Positions 128 through 36,816 of a stretch of DNA of 36,816 bases are shown here, in pieces; position 1 is the first letter of the stretch, and every line of letters begins with the position of its first letter. The DNA comes from a virus. The DNA lies in IMG/VR virus record IMGVR_UViG_3300049440_000057, positions 1-36,816 of that record, one strand, 5' to 3'. The position numbers were made by a program, and so were the translations under genes. Under the pieces are notes generated by a model. The model was not told the DNA's origin and ran no database searches. It saw only the letters and a program-made list of their open reading frames with translations.

Positions 128-365
128 GACCGTCAGTATACCTGCTGGTTGCGATGTTATCCGGCCACTGGTCTCCGGCCAGGAACTTCAAATCATCTAG
201 GCTGGCATCCCTATTCTTGGCTTCTGCCTCTGCTGCCAGCTTGAAACGTTCTTGCGCTACCCGCAGAAAGTCTCGCAGCTTGTCCCGTTGCGCGGCAATG
301 GGATCTTCTGGCGAAGTCGCTGTTTTTACGTCTTCGTAACCGTCAGCCAATGGTCTTCGCTCCAT
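1..365 (-). CDS. Portal protein, N-terminal part (continues at 36689 across the circle)
   Basis: This is the 5' part of the P22-type portal gene. Reading from 365 down to 1 and on from 36689 to 34838 gives one open frame of about 738 aa, close to the 725 aa of P22 gp1. The N-terminal segment contains DDLKFLAGDQWP and RPCLTINRLPSIKRQITNEQ, typical of the first 100 residues of P22-type portals. The ATG at 365 overlaps the upstream gene by 23 nt. A TTG at 350 is preceded by GGAG at a better distance, so the start is uncertain by five codons. The portal forms the ring at the capsid vertex through which DNA enters and leaves. Confidence 0.92.
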   Translation of the reverse strand, partial: MERRPLADGYEDVKTATSPEDPIAAQRDKLRDFLRVAQERFKLAAEAEAKNRDASLDDLKFLAGDQWPDNIATSRYTDGRPCLTINRLPSIKRQITNEQRQQRPSIQVNPVGSESDPDVAE

Positions 366-597
366 CCGCTATCTCGCGCACTCGCATGTCATCCCAATTC
401 TCGCTTTCGGGAGCACCAGTTCCTTCCTGGTGAGTGGCTATCTCTGCTTTGATTGGGAAAGGATCATTGGGATGGATGCCGAATGTGTAAAGTCCGTGGG
501 CATATCCATCAGCAAAACCAGCGGCGAATATCTTCTCCGCCCACTCCTTTATCTCGTCAGGCAACTGCTCCCAAAGTCTGTGTTTTTTGTCAGCCAT
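343..597 (-). CDS. Conserved-looking small phage protein (84 aa), unknown function
   Basis: An acidic, soluble protein beginning MADKKHRLWEQLPDEIKEW, with no motif I recognise. Its ATG overlaps the groES stop by 8 nt (ATGGCTGA), and its 3' end overlaps the portal start, so it is translated from the packaging-head transcript. A TTG start ten codons upstream (627) follows AGGAG and would lengthen the protein by ten residues. That part would read the shared 30-bp repeat in another frame. Its position between a chaperonin cofactor and the portal suggests a head-assembly accessory, but this is inference only. Confidence 0.75.
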   Translation of the reverse strand: MADKKHRLWEQLPDEIKEWAEKIFAAGFADGYAHGLYTFGIHPNDPFPIKAEIATHQEGTGAPESENWDDMRVREIADGAKTIG

Positions 598-949
598 TGT
601 TGCTGAGCAAGTTGATTTTAACCGCAACGATGGCTCCTATATCCTGCTCGGTAATGAGAATGGTCTCTCCCGCTTTCCAGTCAGGAAACTTATTGCCTGC
701 ACCGGGCACTAGAACGGTGTCGCCGGGCTTGACCACCGTCTTGCAGAATGCCCCTTCAAACCAGCGCCCCGGCCCAACTGCCAGGACTTTGCAAAATACT
801 GGGATATCCCGTGCCGTGTCAGGAATATAAATGCTGCCCACCTTCTCTTCTTCAGGAAATCGCTCGACTAGTACCCGGTCGTGGAGCGGCTCCATGCGCG
901 TAAATTCCGCTTTGCCCATCTTGCTCAGTGTGCCTCGAACTGTTCCCAT
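590..949 (-). CDS. groES: Phage GroES-like co-chaperonin (Cpn10)
   Basis: Residues 19-107 align with bacterial GroES: PLHDRVLVERF at the N-terminus, GSIYIP where GroES has the GGIVL mobile-loop motif that binds GroEL, then KVLAVGPG, VKPGDTVLVP and the canonical end DIGAIV. At 119 aa it exceeds the usual 95-100 aa because of an 18-residue N-terminal extension and a C-terminal tail AVKINLLSNN-G. The tail is encoded by a 30-bp sequence also found in frame in the portal gene. The chosen ATG overlaps the upstream stop (TAATG) and follows GGAGG by 8 nt. It probably caps host GroEL during folding of phage coat or other head proteins, as T4 gp31 does. Confidence 0.93.
   Translation of the reverse strand: MGTVRGTLSKMGKAEFTRMEPLHDRVLVERFPEEEKVGSIYIPDTARDIPVFCKVLAVGPGRWFEGAFCKTVVKPGDTVLVPGAGNKFPDWKAGETILITEQDIGAIVAVKINLLSNNG
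596..625. repeat. 30-bp exact direct repeat, copy in groES 3' end
   Basis: Identical to 36269-36298. On the minus strand both copies are read in the same frame as AVKINLLSNN. Flanking bases differ on each side. In groES the repeat starts exactly after the canonical Cpn10 terminus. Confidence 0.97.
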
Positions 950-1130: not shown

Positions 1131-1288
1131 TATTTGCCCCTCATGCTGCTCAACTTGATGCCCTTTTTCTTATGTCCCATTGCCGGGTTGCGGTGCAGCT
1201 CGCCAACCATCTTGCTACGCTGGCCACCGGACAGTGGGCTGCCCTTGCTGAGCAGGTATTTCACTTGCTTGCGGGTCCAAGGCATCAT
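1130..1288 (-). CDS. Small conserved phage protein (52 aa)
   Basis: Not visible to a 60-aa cutoff. The ATG overlaps the terminase stop (ATGA) and the TAA overlaps the next ATG. The product is basic, with KQVKYLLSKGSPLS, KMVGELHRNP and AMGHKKKG. I recognise this pattern from tiny proteins encoded beside terminase or portal genes of many phages, with no known function. Tight translational coupling on both sides supports its reality. Confidence 0.85.
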   Translation of the reverse strand: MMPWTRKQVKYLLSKGSPLSGGQRSKMVGELHRNPAMGHKKKGIKLSSMRGK

Positions 1289-2757
1289 TGCATCCAATTC
1301 TGCGCATCTTGTCCTGGATAGCGCATTTCTGGCTTGGCTTTCGGCTTGGGCGCTGCTACCTTCACGCTGAACGTCATGGCCAGCATGTCGGCACAGTCCG
1401 GTGAGCTTAGCCCGCGCTTCTTCATGTCTTCCTTGCGCTCAAGCTGGATTTGCTGCTTACTGCTGAATCCGTACTCCGGTCCGCAAAGTTCGTCTGCCAG
1501 CTCGGGGTCGTCGGGTATTTCCGAGCCAGATTGTAGCCACTCACGCATCGCTCCCCATACTTCCGCGCGGCGATTAAAGTATTGAGCGGCGTCATTGGCC
1601 CCAGCCCCGCCATGAAACTCAAAAAGCCGTCTGTTATACCCTCTGTGAGTAATATGGTCGATAACACCGGCTCCAATGCCATCTCCATCCACGACCGTTG
1701 CATCCACGCTCTCGCTTTCCATGAGCTGAATCACTCGCTCCGCCACAAATACCGTGTCCTTGCCGCGCAGCTTCTCTAGAATCACTGCTTTACGGCCTTG
1801 CCGATAGCCAATAACTGTCTGGTCGTCTCCGAATCTGGCAACATCCACAGAAAGAATCTTAGGCAAAGCCTCAAAACCTTCCGCCTTATACTTCCTAGCG
1901 GCAGCCACAATATCCGAAGGGATAAGTTGAGCACTACCTGCTCTCGGAAACTCGCCACGTACCCTAACCCGAACGAAGTCTGAATCTTCTCCATAGTCTG
2001 CTATCCACTTGTCAATCTGGGCTTTGTTGGTGCCTTCCACTGTGCGGGAATCAATTTGAAACGTCTTCCAACGATGCTTGAAACGCCCAAAACACTCACG
2101 AAACCGACCTGTATTCTGCGTTGGATTCCCGAAGGCCAGCCAAATAATCTCCGTGTTCTCGTCGGTGAGCGCACCCTCTGCTACCTCCCAAATCCTGTCG
2201 GCAATGGCGCTCGCCTCATCAAAGATGAGCACGATCCGCTTACCCTTATTGTGCAAGCCGGCAAAGGCTTCTGTGTTGTTCTCACTCCAGCTTATCCTGT
2301 CCGTTCGCCAGACTCGCTGATGCTCCGGCTCCCGTACCGTGATGCTCTCGCTGTTCACCTGAAACCATTTGCTGTTCAAGCCAAGCCGAAACCACTTTGA
2401 AACCTCTGGCCAGGTCTTGGTACGAAGTTGAGTATCCGTATTCGCTGTCAAGACGACCTTGCAATCCTCGCAGGTCGACATCGCCCAGTGAATCACCATT
2501 CCCAGGAGCGCGGATTTGCCAATTCCATGTCCAGAACTGACTGCTACCTGCAAAGGAACAAATCGCGTTGAGCTGGAGCCTAAATGTGCGGTGATTGCGC
2601 TTAATATCTCCGTCTGCCATGCTCTAAGCCCCCTGCTTTCTTGTAATTCCGATTCGCCCCAAGGGTAACAGTACTTCACAAACTTGATGGGCTGGCGCGT
2701 GAAGCCCGCTATGTCCTCAATCAGCGCTAGCTCTGGATTCTCTATCGTCGCTGTCAT
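1285..2757 (-). CDS. terL: Terminase large subunit
   Basis: The 490-aa packaging motor has an N-terminal ATPase and a C-terminal nuclease. Walker A is SSGHGIGKS (residues 74-82) and Walker B is RIVLIFDEAS (174-183). The nuclease acidic residues fall in SVDVARFGDD (about 303-312), VVDGDGIG (356-363) and the late SSPDCADML (about 460). Length matches P22 gp2 (499 aa). It docks on the portal, drives DNA into the prohead and cuts the concatemer. The start overlaps the end of the small-terminase gene by about 40 nt, and its stop overlaps the next small gene. Confidence 0.97.
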   Translation of the reverse strand: MTATIENPELALIEDIAGFTRQPIKFVKYCYPWGESELQESRGLRAWQTEILSAITAHLGSSSTRFVPLQVAVSSGHGIGKSALLGMVIHWAMSTCEDCKVVLTANTDTQLRTKTWPEVSKWFRLGLNSKWFQVNSESITVREPEHQRVWRTDRISWSENNTEAFAGLHNKGKRIVLIFDEASAIADRIWEVAEGALTDENTEIIWLAFGNPTQNTGRFRECFGRFKHRWKTFQIDSRTVEGTNKAQIDKWIADYGEDSDFVRVRVRGEFPRAGSAQLIPSDIVAAARKYKAEGFEALPKILSVDVARFGDDQTVIGYRQGRKAVILEKLRGKDTVFVAERVIQLMESESVDATVVDGDGIGAGVIDHITHRGYNRRLFEFHGGAGANDAAQYFNRRAEVWGAMREWLQSGSEIPDDPELADELCGPEYGFSSKQQIQLERKEDMKKRGLSSPDCADMLAMTFSVKVAAPKPKAKPEMRYPGQDAQNWMQ

Positions 2758-4706: not shown

Positions 4707-4897
4707 CACCGTGAACTCCTATTCACCATTTCAACAAAGCGCCTATTCTTTTCTTCGATAAGCGCATATTTCTCTCTATGTTTTGGGCAAGACCTGTCTA
4801 AGTTTCGCTGGTCCTGAGTAATCAAAAATGGACCAGTGAAAACTTTCACCATCTTGTTACAGCCCTTTTCTGGACACTTCAAAAGTTCCTGTGCCAT
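4706..4897 (-). CDS. Small zinc-binding protein (62 aa)
   Basis: Start ATG at 4897 follows GGAGG by 5 nt and overlaps the preceding gene by 41 nt. LLKCPEKGCNKMVKVF and RSCPKHREKY provide CxxxxC and CxxH ligands of a zinc ribbon. The C-terminal half is a charged helix. Function unknown. Confidence 0.78.
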   Translation of the reverse strand: MAQELLKCPEKGCNKMVKVFTGPFLITQDQRNLDRSCPKHREKYALIEEKNRRFVEMVNRSSR

Positions 4898-5138
4898 CGC
4901 TTCCTCCCGTCCGGCTCTTGAGCCACGCCTCAAATTTACGCTCGGCAGTGTCCGCTAAACTCAAGACCAAATCGGCTGAGGTTTCCATTTCAGCAGGAGA
5001 AAGAACTTGATACATCGCCTGCCCCGCTCGCAGCAAGTCCGCGAGGCCGGATTCACGCAGCGCCTCGTCTACGTCCCAATCGTTGCCACAAGTTTTGAGT
5101 ACGACCGCAAACTCCCGCATTGCGTTGTCAACGTCCAT
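4857..5138 (-). CDS. Unknown early protein (93 aa)
   Basis: Begins MDVDNAMREFAVVLKTCG and is acidic and helical throughout, with DEALRESGLADLLRAG. The ATG follows GGAGG by 6 nt, a strong ribosome site after a 190-bp structured non-coding stretch. The last 14 codons overlap the next gene. No domain recognised. Confidence 0.78.
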   Translation of the reverse strand: MDVDNAMREFAVVLKTCGNDWDVDEALRESGLADLLRAGQAMYQVLSPAEMETSADLVLSLADTAERKFEAWLKSRTGGSDGTGTFEVSRKGL

Positions 5139-5158: not shown

Positions 5159-5273
5159 GCGGGATGCTGGCCCGCTTGGTTTGTGACGTTGCTAGCAGCG
5201 ATTAACTGTCGCCTGCTTACGTCTTCCCTAGGGGGGCATCCCCCAGTTAGTCAAACACGCCGCAGCATCCCGC
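5159..5273. other. Structured intergenic element (11-bp inverted repeat with inner hairpin)
   Basis: The 192-bp gap 5139-5330 has no convincing gene. GCGGGATGCTG (5159-5169) and CAGCATCCCGC (5263-5273) are perfect inverted copies. Between them is a G5-ATG-C5 hairpin at 5230-5244. Minus-strand transcripts would fold into a long-range stem just before the strong ribosome site of the next gene. No U-tract follows, so it is not an ordinary terminator. Confidence 0.6.
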
Positions 5274-5330: not shown

Positions 5331-5492
5331 TCATGTACTTACTTGCTCTCCAAAAAGCGCAAATCTTTTATTGCAATTCTCGCATTCCACTACCAGGTAG
5401 GCGCAATCAGAGAAATCTTGTTCATCGAAAAACGCCACTGGGTAAGTGTCTTCATGCTTGCATTCTTCTTTTTCTACTTTCGGTCTCCCCAT
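5331..5492 (-). CDS. Small Cys-containing protein (53 aa)
   Basis: Begins MGRPKVEKEECKHEDTY and has YLVVECENCNKRFALF. The CxH and CxxC pairs suggest a small zinc-binding fold. The ATG follows GAGAGGA and overlaps the upstream gene by 19 nt. A 27-codon ORF (5250-5333) starts at its stop but shows no protein-like features and contains the 16-bp repeat. Confidence 0.75.
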   Translation of the reverse strand: MGRPKVEKEECKHEDTYPVAFFDEQDFSDCAYLVVECENCNKRFALFGEQVST

Positions 5493-5701
5493 AAGTCCTC
5501 TCTTTCTGGGATTTGATGCCCTATCGAGCGCCAGAAACTTTCATGCCAGTCTTGCAATGCCACTTTCCTATTTATCCTGATAAGGACAATTCCCGGCGTA
5601 TAGCTAAAACCTGCTACTCTGCCTCTCAGTTGCTCCGTACAAGCGCCCCATTCTTCTGCCTCTCTGGTGGTCGCCACCTCTTCCCCGATTTCAAAGCTCA
5701 T
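5474..5701 (-). CDS. Unknown early protein (75 aa)
   Basis: Begins MSFEIGEEVATTREAEEWG, then a beta-rich stretch RVAGFSYTPGIVLIRI and an aromatic C-terminal part. The start follows GGAGG by 5 nt. A GTG four codons upstream is the alternative. With its downstream neighbour it forms a pair bracketed by 16-bp direct repeats. Confidence 0.75.
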   Translation of the reverse strand: MSFEIGEEVATTREAEEWGACTEQLRGRVAGFSYTPGIVLIRINRKVALQDWHESFWRSIGHQIPEREDLWGDRK

Positions 5702-6677: not shown

Positions 6678-6716
6678 TCGCTGGCTCCTTTCGCTTCACC
6701 TGATTCGCTCAGAGTC

Positions 6717-7031
6717 TCAGCCATTGCGCACCTCTTGATGATGCAGCCAGCGCTTGATGTTTTCTATTTTACTGTCGCGGCGCATTGCGATTCCAGCCCA
6801 ACTTACATCCTTGGCCCTTGCCAACATGTCGATTGCAAAATCTATGTCTCCGAGTTCCCTCTCCAACTCGCGGCGGTTGGTCATACCTGTATTTACGATA
6901 GGGTTGTAGGATTCATATCCGTGGCGTAGAATCTTGCCGATGGCCTGCTGAGCTTCTCCAAGTTCTTCGGAAAGAATCGCCAGCCTTTCAAGTTGTGCGT
7001 CCGTCAATTTATTGCTAAAAGTCTCAGTCAT
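6717..7031 (-). CDS. MazG-like nucleotide pyrophosphohydrolase (104 aa)
   Basis: SEELGEAQQAIGKILRHG followed by RELERELGDIDFAIDML carries the ExxE...ExxxD metal-binding residues of the all-alpha MazG family, on two helices separated by a short insert. These enzymes hydrolyse NTPs or (p)ppGpp-like nucleotides and are common in phages. The start is MTETFSNKL at 7031; the longer frame is spurious because it overlaps the HNH gene. Confidence 0.82.
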   Translation of the reverse strand: MTETFSNKLTDAQLERLAILSEELGEAQQAIGKILRHGYESYNPIVNTGMTNRRELERELGDIDFAIDMLARAKDVSWAGIAMRRDSKIENIKRWLHHQEVRNG

Positions 7032-7045
7032 TGCGCACCTTCCGC

Positions 7046-13777: not shown

Positions 13778-14680
13778 CTATACGTGTGCTTCTGCTTCCA
13801 ATCGCGTGATGTAAAAATGGATTCCACCGCCGCATTCCTGCCAGCGGTCGGCGTTCCATTCGCTACAGCGCACAATCTTTCCTTTGCGGTATTCCGTCTT
13901 GCCGTCGTGAATGGAAATTCCGACTTCCGCGCCGATAACTTCCAACACCTTGACGAATGCTGCGCGGCACTTGCGCCCATGCGCGTTAGACCGCGCCGCT
14001 TTGGAGGGCACGGCCAATTGCACAATCACGCCATTTCTGCATTTCTTCCAACCAACGAATGGGCCGCTGTCAGGGAGAATAGAAGTGCGGGCAAGTGTAA
14101 GATCAGCCTCTTTTACGTCCTGGAGGTCGGCCCAGCTGAGGTCGGCCCCGCTGAGGTTGGCCCTGCTGAGGTCGGCCCCGCTGAGGTTGGCCCTGCCGAG
14201 GTTGGCCCCGCTGAGGTTGGCCCCGCCGAGGTCGGCCCCGCTGAGGTTGGCCCAGCTGAGGTCGGCCCCGCTGAGGTTGGCCCTGCTGAGGTCGGCCCCG
14301 CTGAGGTTGGCCCAGCTGAGGTCGGCCCCGCTGAGGTTGGCCCTGCTGAGGTTGGCCCCGCTGAGGTTGGCCCAGCTGAGGTCGGCCCCGCTGAGGTTGG
14401 CCCTGCTGAGGTCGGCCCCGCTGAGGTCGGCCCCGCTGAGGTTGGCCCTGCTGAGGTTGGCCCCGCTGAGGTTGGCCCTGCTGAGGTCGGCCCTGCTGAG
14501 GTCGGCCCCGCTGAGGTTGGCCCAGCCGAGGTCGGCCCCGCTGAGGTTGGCCCTGCTGAGGTTGGCCCCGCTGAGGTTGGCCCTGCTTTTAACTGCTGCC
14601 TCAACTGCCAACTTGAACGAATCTGTTTCGACGCTGAAAAGAACGCCGCCATTCAACCACGATTTAATCTCGAACTTCAT
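13778..14680 (-). CDS. Pentapeptide-repeat protein (300 aa)
   Basis: An N-terminal cap FEIKSWLNGGVLFSVETDSF is followed by about 31 tandem A(N/D)Lxx pentapeptides (ANLSG, ADLSW, ADLGG, etc.), which fold as a right-handed quadrilateral beta-helix. A C-terminal domain of about 110 residues (SGPFVGWKKCRNGVIVQLAV onward) resembles DUF5758-like caps. This architecture is common in phage and bacterial genomes. Qnr and MfpA of this fold mimic DNA and bind gyrase, but no such role is shown here. GGGAGGGG precedes the ATG. Confidence 0.9.
   Translation of the reverse strand: MKFEIKSWLNGGVLFSVETDSFKLAVEAAVKSRANLSGANLSRANLSGADLGWANLSGADLSRADLSRANLSGANLSRANLSGADLSGADLSRANLSGADLSWANLSGANLSRANLSGADLSWANLSGADLSRANLSGADLSWANLSGADLGGANLSGANLGRANLSGADLSRANLSGADLSWADLQDVKEADLTLARTSILPDSGPFVGWKKCRNGVIVQLAVPSKAARSNAHGRKCRAAFVKVLEVIGAEVGISIHDGKTEYRKGKIVRCSEWNADRWQECGGGIHFYITRLEAEAHV
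14125..14590. repeat. 15-bp minisatellite (about 31 units)
   Basis: Units such as gctgaggttggcccc and gctgaggtcggcccc repeat in tandem with third-position changes. They encode the pentapeptides on the minus strand. Because the unit is 15 bp and lacks stops in several frames, long open frames of simple repeats also exist on both strands. Confidence 0.95.
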
Positions 14681-15179: not shown

Positions 15180-15422
15180 TTAGGCTGAGACCTTCTCTTT
15201 GGATTCGGTGGCGGCGATGGCGGCTCGCAAGGCTGTCATTGGACACCGCTTGCTATGCCAATTCTGATCTGCGGTATCGTGACACATGCATCCTTGCAGT
15301 TCGGCAAGCTTGGCTGCGGCGAGTAGCGCGTCTCGCTGGGCCTGCAAGCCAGCTGCGCACGTCCTGCAACCATCGCGCCTGTCGAAGTCGTGGCCGCACT
15401 TGTACATAGTTTTGGCGCTCAT
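15180..15422 (-). CDS. Cys-rich duplicated-family protein A (80 aa)
   Basis: Begins MSAKTMYKCGHDFDRRDGC and RTCAAGLQAQR: CxH and CxxC ligands of a zinc knuckle followed by a helix. The middle has LQGCMCHDTADQNWHSKRC, a second Cys/His set missing in copy B. The C-terminus ALRAAIAATESKE matches copy B. The first 115 bp are 113/115 identical to copy B, showing a recent duplication or conversion. Confidence 0.8.
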   Translation of the reverse strand: MSAKTMYKCGHDFDRRDGCRTCAAGLQAQRDALLAAAKLAELQGCMCHDTADQNWHSKRCPMTALRAAIAATESKEKVSA

Positions 15423-15427
15423 GCGCT
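15313..15427. repeat. 115-bp duplicated segment, copy A
   Basis: Matches 15749-15863 at 113 of 115 positions. It covers the first 36 or so codons of protein A plus the preceding stop/start junction. Confidence 0.9.
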
Positions 15428-15625
15428 AACCTTTTTGGATTGCCGCTCGGCCTCGGCTTCGTAATCTCGTACTACTTTCCAATCCTTACGGTCGAGAACT
15501 CCATAATCTTTATGATTCCGTATGCACCACGCCGCGGTGATGGGATTGGCAAAGCCAGTACTGATTGTGCTGCCATCCTCGACCATAATCACTTTATAGA
15601 TTTTCTCGTTGAACCGGGGGCTCAT
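15419..15625 (-). CDS. Unknown early protein between the duplicated genes (68 aa)
   Basis: Begins MSPRFNEKIYKVIMVEDGST, then TGFANPITAAWCIRNHKDYG, a compact alpha/beta-looking protein ending ERQSKKVSA. Both ends are ATGA overlaps with the flanking paralogues. The shared ending (K)VSA and start MS of neighbouring genes mark a repeated junction sequence. Confidence 0.75.
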   Translation of the reverse strand: MSPRFNEKIYKVIMVEDGSTISTGFANPITAAWCIRNHKDYGVLDRKDWKVVRDYEAEAERQSKKVSA

Positions 15626-15858
15626 GCGCCCACCTGCTCTTTGGATTCGGCGGCGGCGATGGCGGCACGCACACGGAACAAAAAATCATCTGCTCGCCAA
15701 TTGATGCGCCCTGCCTCGAAATCCATAATCTTGCTCTCGATGTCTTTCGCTGCGGCGAGTAGAGCGTTTCGCTGGGCCTGCAAGCCAGCTGCGCACGTCC
15801 TGCAACCATCGCGCCTGTCGAAGTCGTGGCCGCACTTGTACATAGTTTTGGCGCTCAT
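15622..15858 (-). CDS. Cys-rich duplicated-family protein B (78 aa)
   Basis: The N-terminus is identical to protein A (MSAKTMYKCGHDFDRRDGC, zinc-knuckle ligands) through GLQAQR. The middle differs (IESKIMDFEAGRINWRADDF), and the C-terminus AAIAAAESKE again matches A. So the two are mosaic, with conserved ends and unrelated cores. Function unknown. Confidence 0.8.
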   Translation of the reverse strand: MSAKTMYKCGHDFDRRDGCRTCAAGLQAQRNALLAAAKDIESKIMDFEAGRINWRADDFLFRVRAAIAAAESKEQVGA

Positions 15859-15863
15859 GCGCT
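15749..15863. repeat. 115-bp duplicated segment, copy B
   Basis: Matches 15313-15427 at 113 of 115 positions, covering the 5' end of gene B and its junction with the upstream RHH gene. A shorter 35-bp similarity joins the 3' ends (15195-15229 and 15637-15671). Confidence 0.9.
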
Positions 15864-16025
15864 CACCGGCTCTTTGGTGGCTTGCCGTGCTTGGAGGGCT
15901 TGCGTCAGCAGCACTTCCACCAAGTTTGAGATCGTTCGCTGGTCCTCGCCTGCCAGCCTCTTGAGTTGCCGCTTGAGCTGGGGCGGTACGCGAACGGTCA
16001 GCACTTCATCGGGTGGCTTGGTCAT
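15855..16025 (-). CDS. Ribbon-helix-helix (Arc/CopG-like) regulator (56 aa)
   Basis: Under 60 aa. The sequence EVLTVRVPPQLKRQLKRLAG then EDQRTISNLVEVLLTQAL has the beta-strand with alternating residues, the first helix and the second helix of RHH dimers. Such proteins bind palindromic operators through the paired strands. It is the second gene of the early transcript. ATGA overlaps on both sides. It is a candidate for control of the late-promoter palindrome or its own promoter. Confidence 0.87.
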   Translation of the reverse strand: MTKPPDEVLTVRVPPQLKRQLKRLAGEDQRTISNLVEVLLTQALQARQATKEPVSA

Positions 16026-33900: not shown

Positions 33901-34845
33901 TCAACGCCTAAATCGCGCTTTTGCCTGTTCGTCGCGCAATTTCCGCCAATCGGCATAGGGAATATCAGGGTCGGCGAGTGATGCCGCGGATTTTGTGCTG
34001 TGGCCGCTCAAGCCCTTAATCGGCGGAGGCGCTGAACTGACAGGCAGCTTGTCCGGGCCAACCTTGCGAGCATTGACAGGTTCTTCGGTGCCCCTCGAAA
34101 CGTCCATCATAACCATTGTCTTTATGCTTCCTAATTCTAGGAGCATGTCCGCTATCGTCATTTTTCGTAATTCTTTGGCAATATCTGGATTTTTTGCAAG
34201 ATACAACATGACCCGAGGAGCCGCTTCCTTGCTCATTCTCTTTATAGTTTCGGAAGCTACTTGGCTTACTTCAACCTTGCTTTCAGAAATTATTTCATCA
34301 AAATCTGTGTTTATTTTTCCGTACTCCTCGCAAGCGGAAGTAAAATCCTCTTCTCGCTTTTGGTTCGCTTTTTGTTGAGCAAGTTTTTGAGCTTTAGCTT
34401 CTTGCGCGAGTACTTCTTGCCTGATTTCCCAGCGGGTTTGCGCTTTAATCCACTTCTCGTAGGTGTCGAACTTGTCTTGTGTTGGCTCGGGGTCGGCAGA
34501 CTCGGCAGGCTCAGGTTGCTCAGTTGCGGCGGGAACAGGTTCCACAGCAGGCTTAGCTTTGCGTGCTTCGGCAAGCTCAAGTTCAAGTGCCGAGGCACGT
34601 TGTTCGGCTGATTTAGCCCTGTCTGCCAATGCGGTCTTTTCTGCAGTGAGTTTCCCGATGCGTTTTTTATAAGGGTCTTTTGCAGTCGGTTCGTTGGCAT
34701 CATTCGGTTCCTCGTTGTCTACCTGCTTGTCGCCCTTGGCGGAGGTTTGCTCCAGTTCCGCCTCTTCCGGCTCCTGCACTGTGCCGGCAGCCTGATTCAC
34801 CTGCTCTTGCGTGTCTGTCGTCGAGGCTACTTGCACGTCACCCAT
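33901..34845 (-). CDS. Scaffolding protein (314 aa)
   Basis: The start is MGDVQVASTTDTQEQVNQAA, overlapping the portal stop; the longer frame is a portal shadow. Acidic and Glu/Ala/Lys-rich with extended helices (LTAEKTALADRAKSAEQRAS), it resembles P22 gp8 (303 aa). The Arg/Lys-rich C-terminus WRKLRDEQAKARFRR fits the coat-binding end. It is needed for prohead assembly and is then released. Confidence 0.88.
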   Translation of the reverse strand: MGDVQVASTTDTQEQVNQAAGTVQEPEEAELEQTSAKGDKQVDNEEPNDANEPTAKDPYKKRIGKLTAEKTALADRAKSAEQRASALELELAEARKAKPAVEPVPAATEQPEPAESADPEPTQDKFDTYEKWIKAQTRWEIRQEVLAQEAKAQKLAQQKANQKREEDFTSACEEYGKINTDFDEIISESKVEVSQVASETIKRMSKEAAPRVMLYLAKNPDIAKELRKMTIADMLLELGSIKTMVMMDVSRGTEEPVNARKVGPDKLPVSSAPPPIKGLSGHSTKSAASLADPDIPYADWRKLRDEQAKARFRR

Positions 34846-36816
34846 TCCCGTTTGCTCCTGCCGCTGGTTGCGGCGCATTGTCCTGCATAGTCGCTTCGTG
34901 GTCCTGCTGTGTTGCTGCCATGTCCTGTTCGTGGCCTTGCTGGTCCTTCTGCAAAGCCAGGTCATGCGCCGAGCCGTGCAGCTCTGACCAGACGCCTTGC
35001 ACCGTCTTGGCGCGTTCGATGGCTATCTGGGCCTTGGTGCTGATTTCCGCGATGGCAATCTTGGTCTCATTGTTGAGCTGCGCAATCTGTACCTGAGCTT
35101 GCTGCTTTACCTGGTCCGTCTTGATTCTGTCCGTGGCATCCTGCAACGCCTTGACCAGCAAATCATGCTGCTGCGCGAACTGTTGGAGTTGTGCTTGTGC
35201 CTGTTGCAACTGTGCTTCGGGGTCGCTCTGGTCTCCGCCTTGCAACTGTTGAGGCAGCATCTTCTTGAGCCTGTCAGCCATTTCCTGCGCTTGTGGCCAG
35301 TCCATATTCCGTACAATTAGGTCGCCAACTATCTGCATTGCTTGAGGATAGGCTTGCACGAGGGCCATCTGCGCAGCTACCGCCTCTTGGCGCTTCGTCT
35401 GATAGCTTGGGCCAACGGAAACGGTCACATCGTAGCGCCCGGTGCCAATGTCATAGACTTTCTTGACGCCTAGCGCCTGTTTCATCTCTTCGGGCGTCAT
35501 CCCGCCTGAATTGTCCTTGGTGTAGACTCCTACGTGGCTCGCCGTGCCATCCGGCTCGATAATCCGCTGAATCCTTGGCGCATCGTAGATTTTCGGTATC
35601 AAATCGAGCAGAATCTTTCCCGTCCAGCGGATTGCCCGGCTCAAATTGTCTGAAAAATTCAGATTTCCGATGTCTGATTGCTTCTGGAGCAGCTGAACAG
35701 CCTTGCCCGACTGGTCCCTTTTGTCCTCGCCTAGCGAAGGGTTGAATATTCCAACTACAGCTTTCAGGTCATTGTCTGCCTGCCGCGTCATCAGCGTAAT
35801 GGCCTGCACGGGCGGCTCGAATGTCTGCCGGGCTGGTGGTGGAAGCGGCGTGCCGTTCAAACTGACGGGTTTATACTCCAAATAGGGCATATTCTTGGTA
35901 TTGGCATTGGCCCATTGGCTCTCATGGTTCTCAAACTGGCCCTCCCCGCCCACAAACGGCGCTCGCGGAGCTAAGGCAATCATCTCTGTGCCGGAACTCA
36001 CCCAATAGTTGTACATCCGCTGTGGGTCTTTGGCATCTCGCACAATCCCCGCCAAATGCCGCTTCCCGTCAATGTCGAAGTCATCGCCTAGGACTGGAAT
36101 GATGGGGATAAACAGCCCCGGCCAGTCCTGCCCTTGCCAGTTGCTCGAGGTGGCGTTCAGCACTTCGATGCCGTTTATCTTTGAAACCACCACTTTGCGC
36201 TTTTGCACGTCCCTGCTGCGTAGGACAGTCACACCTTGCGGCAATAGCTGCCCTTCCTCTTGCACCTGATTGTTGCTGAGCAAGTTGATTTTAACCGCGT
36301 CGTATTCAACGTGGTAGTACATCGCCACGCGGATAGTGTCTTTCGTCGCCCAATTTGGGGCTTGATCGCCTATTGACTGAAAATCAGGCAGCCCAGCCGC
36401 ATCAGAGTTGGCATAATCCCTTAAATACTCAACCTTTGGTATGTCCTCGACCTTGAAGCACCAATCCGCATCGCAATACGTTGGTTCTATTGCACTTGGG
36501 TCGAAGTAGATAGTGAAGGGATTCTTGGTGCGCTTGATGAAGATTTCCTGGTCAAAGCTCGTGTCATCGAGGTAGTCAGTCATCACTTCCCAATAGCCGA
36601 ATCCGCCCGTCACCATCATCTCAAAACCTGTGTCGTAGGCTATTTCAGCGTCAGAATTGACCTCGATATGCCGGATAACCCCTTGCAACACCTCGGCTAC
36701 GTCAGGGTCAGACTCTGAACCTACTGGGTTGACCTGGATGCTGGGCCGCTGCTGGCGCTGCTCGTTCGTGATTTGTCGCTTGATGCTGGGGAGGCGGTTA
36801 ATCGTCAGGCATGGCC
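34838..36816 (-). CDS. Portal protein, main part (5' end at 365 across the circle)
   Basis: The frame continues from the window's start (positions 365-1). It has DTGFEMMVTGGFGYWEVMTD and FTIYFDPSAIEPTYCDADWC, the core of P22-type portals, then AVKINLLSNN at 36298-36269 (in the shared repeat). The C-terminal barrel is a long Gln/Ala coiled coil (QAQAQLQQFAQQHDLLVKAL) as in P22 gp1. Bases 36690-36816 repeat 1-127. The true product is about 738 aa. It is coupled to the scaffold gene. Confidence 0.94.
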   Translation of the reverse strand, partial: PCLTINRLPSIKRQITNEQRQQRPSIQVNPVGSESDPDVAEVLQGVIRHIEVNSDAEIAYDTGFEMMVTGGFGYWEVMTDYLDDTSFDQEIFIKRTKNPFTIYFDPSAIEPTYCDADWCFKVEDIPKVEYLRDYANSDAAGLPDFQSIGDQAPNWATKDTIRVAMYYHVEYDAVKINLLSNNQVQEEGQLLPQGVTVLRSRDVQKRKVVVSKINGIEVLNATSSNWQGQDWPGLFIPIIPVLGDDFDIDGKRHLAGIVRDAKDPQRMYNYWVSSGTEMIALAPRAPFVGGEGQFENHESQWANANTKNMPYLEYKPVSLNGTPLPPPARQTFEPPVQAITLMTRQADNDLKAVVGIFNPSLGEDKRDQSGKAVQLLQKQSDIGNLNFSDNLSRAIRWTGKILLDLIPKIYDAPRIQRIIEPDGTASHVGVYTKDNSGGMTPEEMKQALGVKKVYDIGTGRYDVTVSVGPSYQTKRQEAVAAQMALVQAYPQAMQIVGDLIVRNMDWPQAQEMADRLKKMLPQQLQGGDQSDPEAQLQQAQAQLQQFAQQHDLLVKALQDATDRIKTDQVKQQAQVQIAQLNNETKIAIAEISTKAQIAIERAKTVQGVWSELHGSAHDLALQKDQQGHEQDMAATQQDHEATMQDNAPQPAAGANGNG
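36269..36298. repeat. 30-bp exact direct repeat, copy in the portal gene
   Basis: Identical to 596-625 and read in the same frame (AVKINLLSNN). In the portal the segment sits inside the protein with continuous flanking sequence, so this copy looks native and the groES copy derived. Confidence 0.97.
36690..36816. repeat. Right copy of 127-bp terminal overlap (circular assembly)
   Basis: Identical to 1-127. Trimming one copy gives a 36,689-bp circle and an unbroken portal frame. Confidence 0.95.

Follow-up and report, generated by a model that had tools for sequence, protein, structure and literature searches.

The closest described counterparts of the rearrangement considered here concern short repeats and small genes at gene boundaries. 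In mycobacteriophage Island3, gene 68 is a small orphan gene inserted at such a boundary, and a short stretch of it (about 50 bp, or 18 residues) matches the C-terminal end of the gene upstream of it (Pope et al. 2011, PMC3029335). In LRRHood, 29-bp direct repeats flank inserted genes (PMC3029335). A third type of event, quasipalindrome-associated template-switch mutation, is described as using a local inverted repeat as template (e.g. PMC7202029, PMC8794818).

The window analysed here, the 36,816 nucleotides of virus record IMGVR_UViG_3300049440_000057, contains a gene for a phage GroES (Cpn10) whose 3' end holds 30 bp also present in the portal gene of the same genome. These 30 bp were probably placed there by a single, recent and non-reciprocal event that copied part of the phage's own portal into the overlap between the groES stop and the start of the next gene.

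Gene organisation and the variable GroES-portal slot

The contig derives from a virus of bacteria and is a circle: its two ends share 127 bp (bases 1-127 are identical to 36690-36816), which leaves a unit of 36,689 bp. The genes discussed here lie on the minus strand in the order terL, GroES, orfA and portal, an order that crosses the circle junction. The terminase large subunit gene (terL, 1285..2757; PHROG 2 / 5902) is located upstream of the GroES gene (590..949, 119 aa), which is assigned to Pfam PF00166 (E=1.4e-15) and to PHROG 3188, co-chaperonin GroES. It is followed by orfA, a small orphan gene from the open reading frame list (343..627) that starts either at a Shine-Dalgarno-spaced TTG at 627 or at an ATG at 597; it has no Pfam or PHROG match and no convincing relative among the related loci. 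The portal gene extends over 34838..36689, with its 5' part across the circle junction and a TTG start at 350, and is of the P22 type: the P22_portal profile PF16510 covers most of its length (E=1e-157, 526.6 bits). The stop of orfA overlaps this TTG start within TTGGCTGAC (342..350, minus strand), and the pattern list places the heptamer GGCTGAC on both sides of orfA, within 342..350 and at 595-589. GroES shortly upstream of a P22-type portal is also seen in many environmental phage contigs (L095, L098, L106, L107, L109, L110, L112-L116, L118-L121 and others), though none of the named phage records listed by a GroES search has this gene order.

The slot between GroES and portal varies among relatives. 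It is empty in L001, L003 and L087, where the two genes overlap directly, and in L086, L091 and L089 it is occupied by small ORFs that differ from one to the next. In L089, a 17-bp exact duplicate of the groES end, which includes the Shine-Dalgarno and the start (5256-5272 and 5348-5364), and an 18-bp exact duplicate of the portal start (5487-5504 and 5632-5649) surround the small ORFs between the two genes within a few hundred bases; one of these ORFs ends in IIGAILG, after a GroES ending in DIGAILG. The flanking genes also differ in their affinities: the terL of the window is nearest that of L089 (87% identity), whose portal is only 57% identical, whereas the window portal is closest to those of L001 and L002 (78%), and the terL of L001 is only 62% identical. 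The GroES-portal boundary thus appears, from these comparisons of sequence, to be prone to recombination, a mosaic junction at which small genes are gained and lost.

An exact repeat shared by groES and the portal gene

Two exact copies of the 30-mer ATTGTTGCTGAGCAAGTTGATTTTAACCGC are present on the same strand, one in groES (596-625) and one in the portal gene (36269-36298); allowing up to 3 mismatches gave no further match, and none would be expected. On the coding strand (minus) both copies read GCGGTTAAAATCAACTTGCTCAGCAACAAT and are translated as AVKINLLSNN, each in the frame of its own gene. The preliminary description had reported both copies and their common frame, and the search and the translations agree with it; it had also treated groES and portal as neighbours on the circle, which has to be amended, as orfA intervenes (84 or 94 codons, 343-597 or 343-627). 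A chance origin of the repeat was excluded, since none of 100 dinucleotide-shuffled sequences contained two matches to the 30-mer, and the pair is the sole exact repeat of at least 11 bp in the terL-to-portal region examined. As for the background, exact repeats of at least 20 bp were found in 18 of 174 related loci (1.53 Mb), many of them simple-sequence or tandem-like. Clean repeats like the 30-bp pair are uncommon, not unique.

Repeats of other kinds were noticed elsewhere. Within the window, a 104-aa ORF has a repeated gene-start sequence of 27 bp (89% identity) at each of its ends (6707-6733 and 7014-7040), the second copy starting an ORF of only 16 aa; a stretch at 15190-15867 is duplicated at a distance of about 440 bp, with 97% identity over 122 bp and 93% over 40 bp; and an array with a 15-bp period (14033-14677, about 40 units) lies within an ORF. 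Near the start of another phage GroES, in L133, the 24-bp exact repeat GATGCCTAAATCCCGCGAAGAAAT (4807-4830 and 4946-4969) is perhaps another duplicated gene start.

Direction of copying

Close GroES homologues encoded between terL and portal were obtained by a profile (alignment) search, a single-sequence search with GroES having yielded none. Their identities to the window GroES are 71% (L086), 70% (L087 and L088), 64% (L089), 62% (L091), 59% (L001 and L090) and, for the more distant L003 and L092, 46%. The six distinct close relatives (L086, L087, L089, L091, L001 and L003), all with the slot order terL-GroES-portal, end in D(I/V)GAI(V/L)(G/A) and a stop, the endings seen being DIGAIVG, DVGAIVA or DIGAILG, and all lack the tail. 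At the DNA level, L091 and the window share the 19 bp GATATAGGAGCCATCGTTG as far as the break, where L091 continues with GC-TAA. A homologue of the portal segment, however, is present in 133 of 143 aligned portals (for example, PVTICLLPNN in L001 and PVKICLLPNN in L002), although the segment is variable among relatives and missing in some of them (L106, L107 and L112). Because the close GroES relatives lack the tail while 133 of the 143 portals have the segment, the direction of copying is from portal to groES; the reverse, with the portal as recipient, was ruled out, as the portals of relatives already have the segment. On these alignments the segment was donated by the portal gene, and in groES exactly 30 bp were inserted, with GTT before them and GGC-TGA after them.

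This comparison bears out the proposal in the preliminary description that the groES tail was copied from the portal. It had predicted relatives with the portal segment and a GroES ending at AIV, and the relatives aligned do have the segment and a GroES that stops at AIV-G/A; it had also named a GroES with the same tail in other phages as contrary evidence, and none was found, the exact 30-mer being absent from the IMG/VR viral collection. Its view of the tail as an addition right after the canonical Cpn10 end holds in that the Pfam match stops at residue 108, the V immediately before the tail, and needs correction in that the old Gly-stop remains after the insert: the protein ends AVKINLLSNN-G-stop, so that the insert is not strictly terminal but lies one codon inside the gene. 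By comparison with the relatives, this final Gly-stop is ancestral. The GroES matches among named phage records were all distant, a junction-pattern search gave mostly unrelated matches in its loose form and only L091 and L003 again in its tight form, and no relative was found that is close enough to date the insertion or to order it relative to the arrival of orfA.

Effects on GroES and on the overlapping orfA

The Cpn10 domain of GroES is intact despite the insert. The Cpn10 profile matches residues 19-108 with 57.6 bits (curated cut-off, 21.1), and the top fold matches of the predicted model, a monomer built from 18 sequences with a mean pLDDT of 75, are Cpn10 structures (probability 1.00, E 9e-7), the T4 gp31 structure 1g31 being among the matches. 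The tail is poorly predicted, with a mean pLDDT of 48 in the last block versus about 90 for the core strands. Since several distant phage GroES bear other, unrelated C-terminal extensions (L102, L106, L107 and L115), the C-terminus appears to tolerate additions. The ten extra residues, as modelled, are probably an unstructured and tolerated tail, and the insert is probably neutral for GroES.

The same 30 bp are also in frame in orfA when this is read from the TTG at 627. Upstream of this codon (627-625), an AGGAG Shine-Dalgarno (634..638, minus strand) lies inside the groES 3' end at a distance of 6 nt, an arrangement that also precedes the TTG with which the next gene begins in L001 (with GGGG instead), L003, L086, L087, L089 and L091. 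The first base of the insert is a G, which preserves the spacing of the TTG, and the insert length of 30 bp leaves the ORF from that TTG (94 codons) in the frame of orfA; ten codons were therefore added to two overlapping genes, groES and orfA, at once. The preliminary description mentions neither the sharing of the insert with orfA nor the small-gene slot. With the old start kept in frame, orfA would still be translatable by coupling to groES. At the other end, AAT from the insert and the adjoining GGCTGAC create a new ATG at 597, with no evident Shine-Dalgarno in its start context.

Mechanism and alternative explanations

The insertion is exact and directly oriented, and its donor lies downstream on the circle at a distance of about 1 kb. 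It split the ancestral GTT|GGC-stop junction and left the two overlapping reading frames open. Polymerase template switching or illegitimate (little-homology) recombination could have produced it; no copying mechanism is proven, because the microhomology at the breakpoint amounts to about 1 bp. A small hairpin may have helped. The flank and the insert ends form an imperfect 12-bp inverted repeat, AGCCATCGTTGC (635-624) and GCAACAATGGCT (603-592), spanning 592..635 on the minus strand, in which the insert end GCAACAAT can pair with ATCGTTGC, made of left flank and insert start, at 7 of 8 positions; counted against the flank, the insert end pairs at 8 of 9. Equally good pairing is offered by 26 of 73,378 random donor positions (3.5e-4); the match was spotted once the fold had been seen. 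The folding energy of the stem is ordinary (z -0.65 versus shuffles), and 20% of random inserts fold as stably. The pairing fits a hairpin-helped template switch and is only suggestive of it. An RNA regulatory element at the junction was considered and set aside, the stem energy being ordinary.

The main rival to copying from the phage's own portal holds that one recombination with another phage brought in orfA and the 30 bp together, as a single piece. Such an arrival would agree with an insert that ends exactly at the orfA start, with the GGCTGAC heptamers around orfA and with the small ORFs of L089, which come with junction duplications. However, the repeat is 100% identical to the window's own portal and the portals of the nearest relatives differ strongly there, so that the donor must be the window phage or a very near one; moreover, orfA has no known source, and a joint arrival is considered unlikely. 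An assembly or sequencing artefact that joined two reads through the 30-mer would be conceivable for a metagenome contig, since short k-mers can join reads through exact repeats of this kind. In a chimera the flanks would be exchanged, whereas both flanks of both copies match those of relatives, which makes it unlikely, and the 127-bp end repeat suggests that the presumed assembler worked with a final k-mer of 127, far longer than 30; overall, an artefact is highly improbable.

Selection could be invoked for either of the two genes. For GroES, the tail would be a functional portal mimic made in one step, the portal-derived peptide docking the co-chaperonin to the portal or to GroEL-bound head proteins and thereby recruiting it to head assembly. 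Its identity to the portal segment, in frame, and the position of GroES among head genes in many relatives speak for this reading, but the tail is found in no other phage GroES, the variable and sometimes missing portal segment makes a poor conserved docking site, and the low prediction confidence is that expected of an unstructured end. A role of this kind is very unlikely, and the earlier suggestion that the tail may affect GroEL binding or target the cofactor found no support, the neutral option offered with it being favoured. For orfA, the insert might have been selected for changed expression, through the ATG at 597 that it creates or through a hairpin over the start, the imperfect stem covering both TTG and ATG; with a new ATG that lacks an evident Shine-Dalgarno and a stem whose energy is ordinary against shuffles, this can hardly be expected to be the case. 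A single copying event from the phage's own portal thus remains the preferred reading.

Comparison with described systems

The window offers a snapshot of a phage protein gaining a new end in one step, by an exact ten-codon intragenomic transfer that was kept in frame in two overlapping genes, and it does so at a head-gene junction that repeatedly houses unrelated small genes and leaves the genes on either side intact.

With GroES/Cpn10 proteins (PF00166), phage co-chaperonins like T4 gp31 among them, the window GroES shares the fold and the family match; it differs from them in its ten extra, portal-derived residues before the last glycine. The small ORF of L089 that ends in IIGAILG after GroES DIGAILG is a case of the same type as Island3 gene 68, whereas the piece copied in the window was taken from the portal, about 1 kb downstream, and not from the end of the upstream gene. 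As in LRRHood, there is a short exact direct repeat of near-equal length at a gene end, with one copy in relatives and two in the window. Unlike the LRRHood repeats, which flank a gene insertion on both sides, one copy in the window lies inside the portal, in a segment kept in relatives' portals, and only GGCTGAC flanks orfA. With the quasipalindrome template switches the window shares a templated multi-base change at a site able to pair with its flank; the copied bases match a directly oriented template about 1 kb away rather than a local inverted repeat, although the insert end pairs with the flank. The class of event is already known from comparable mycobacteriophage events, and the value of the window is as an example of it.
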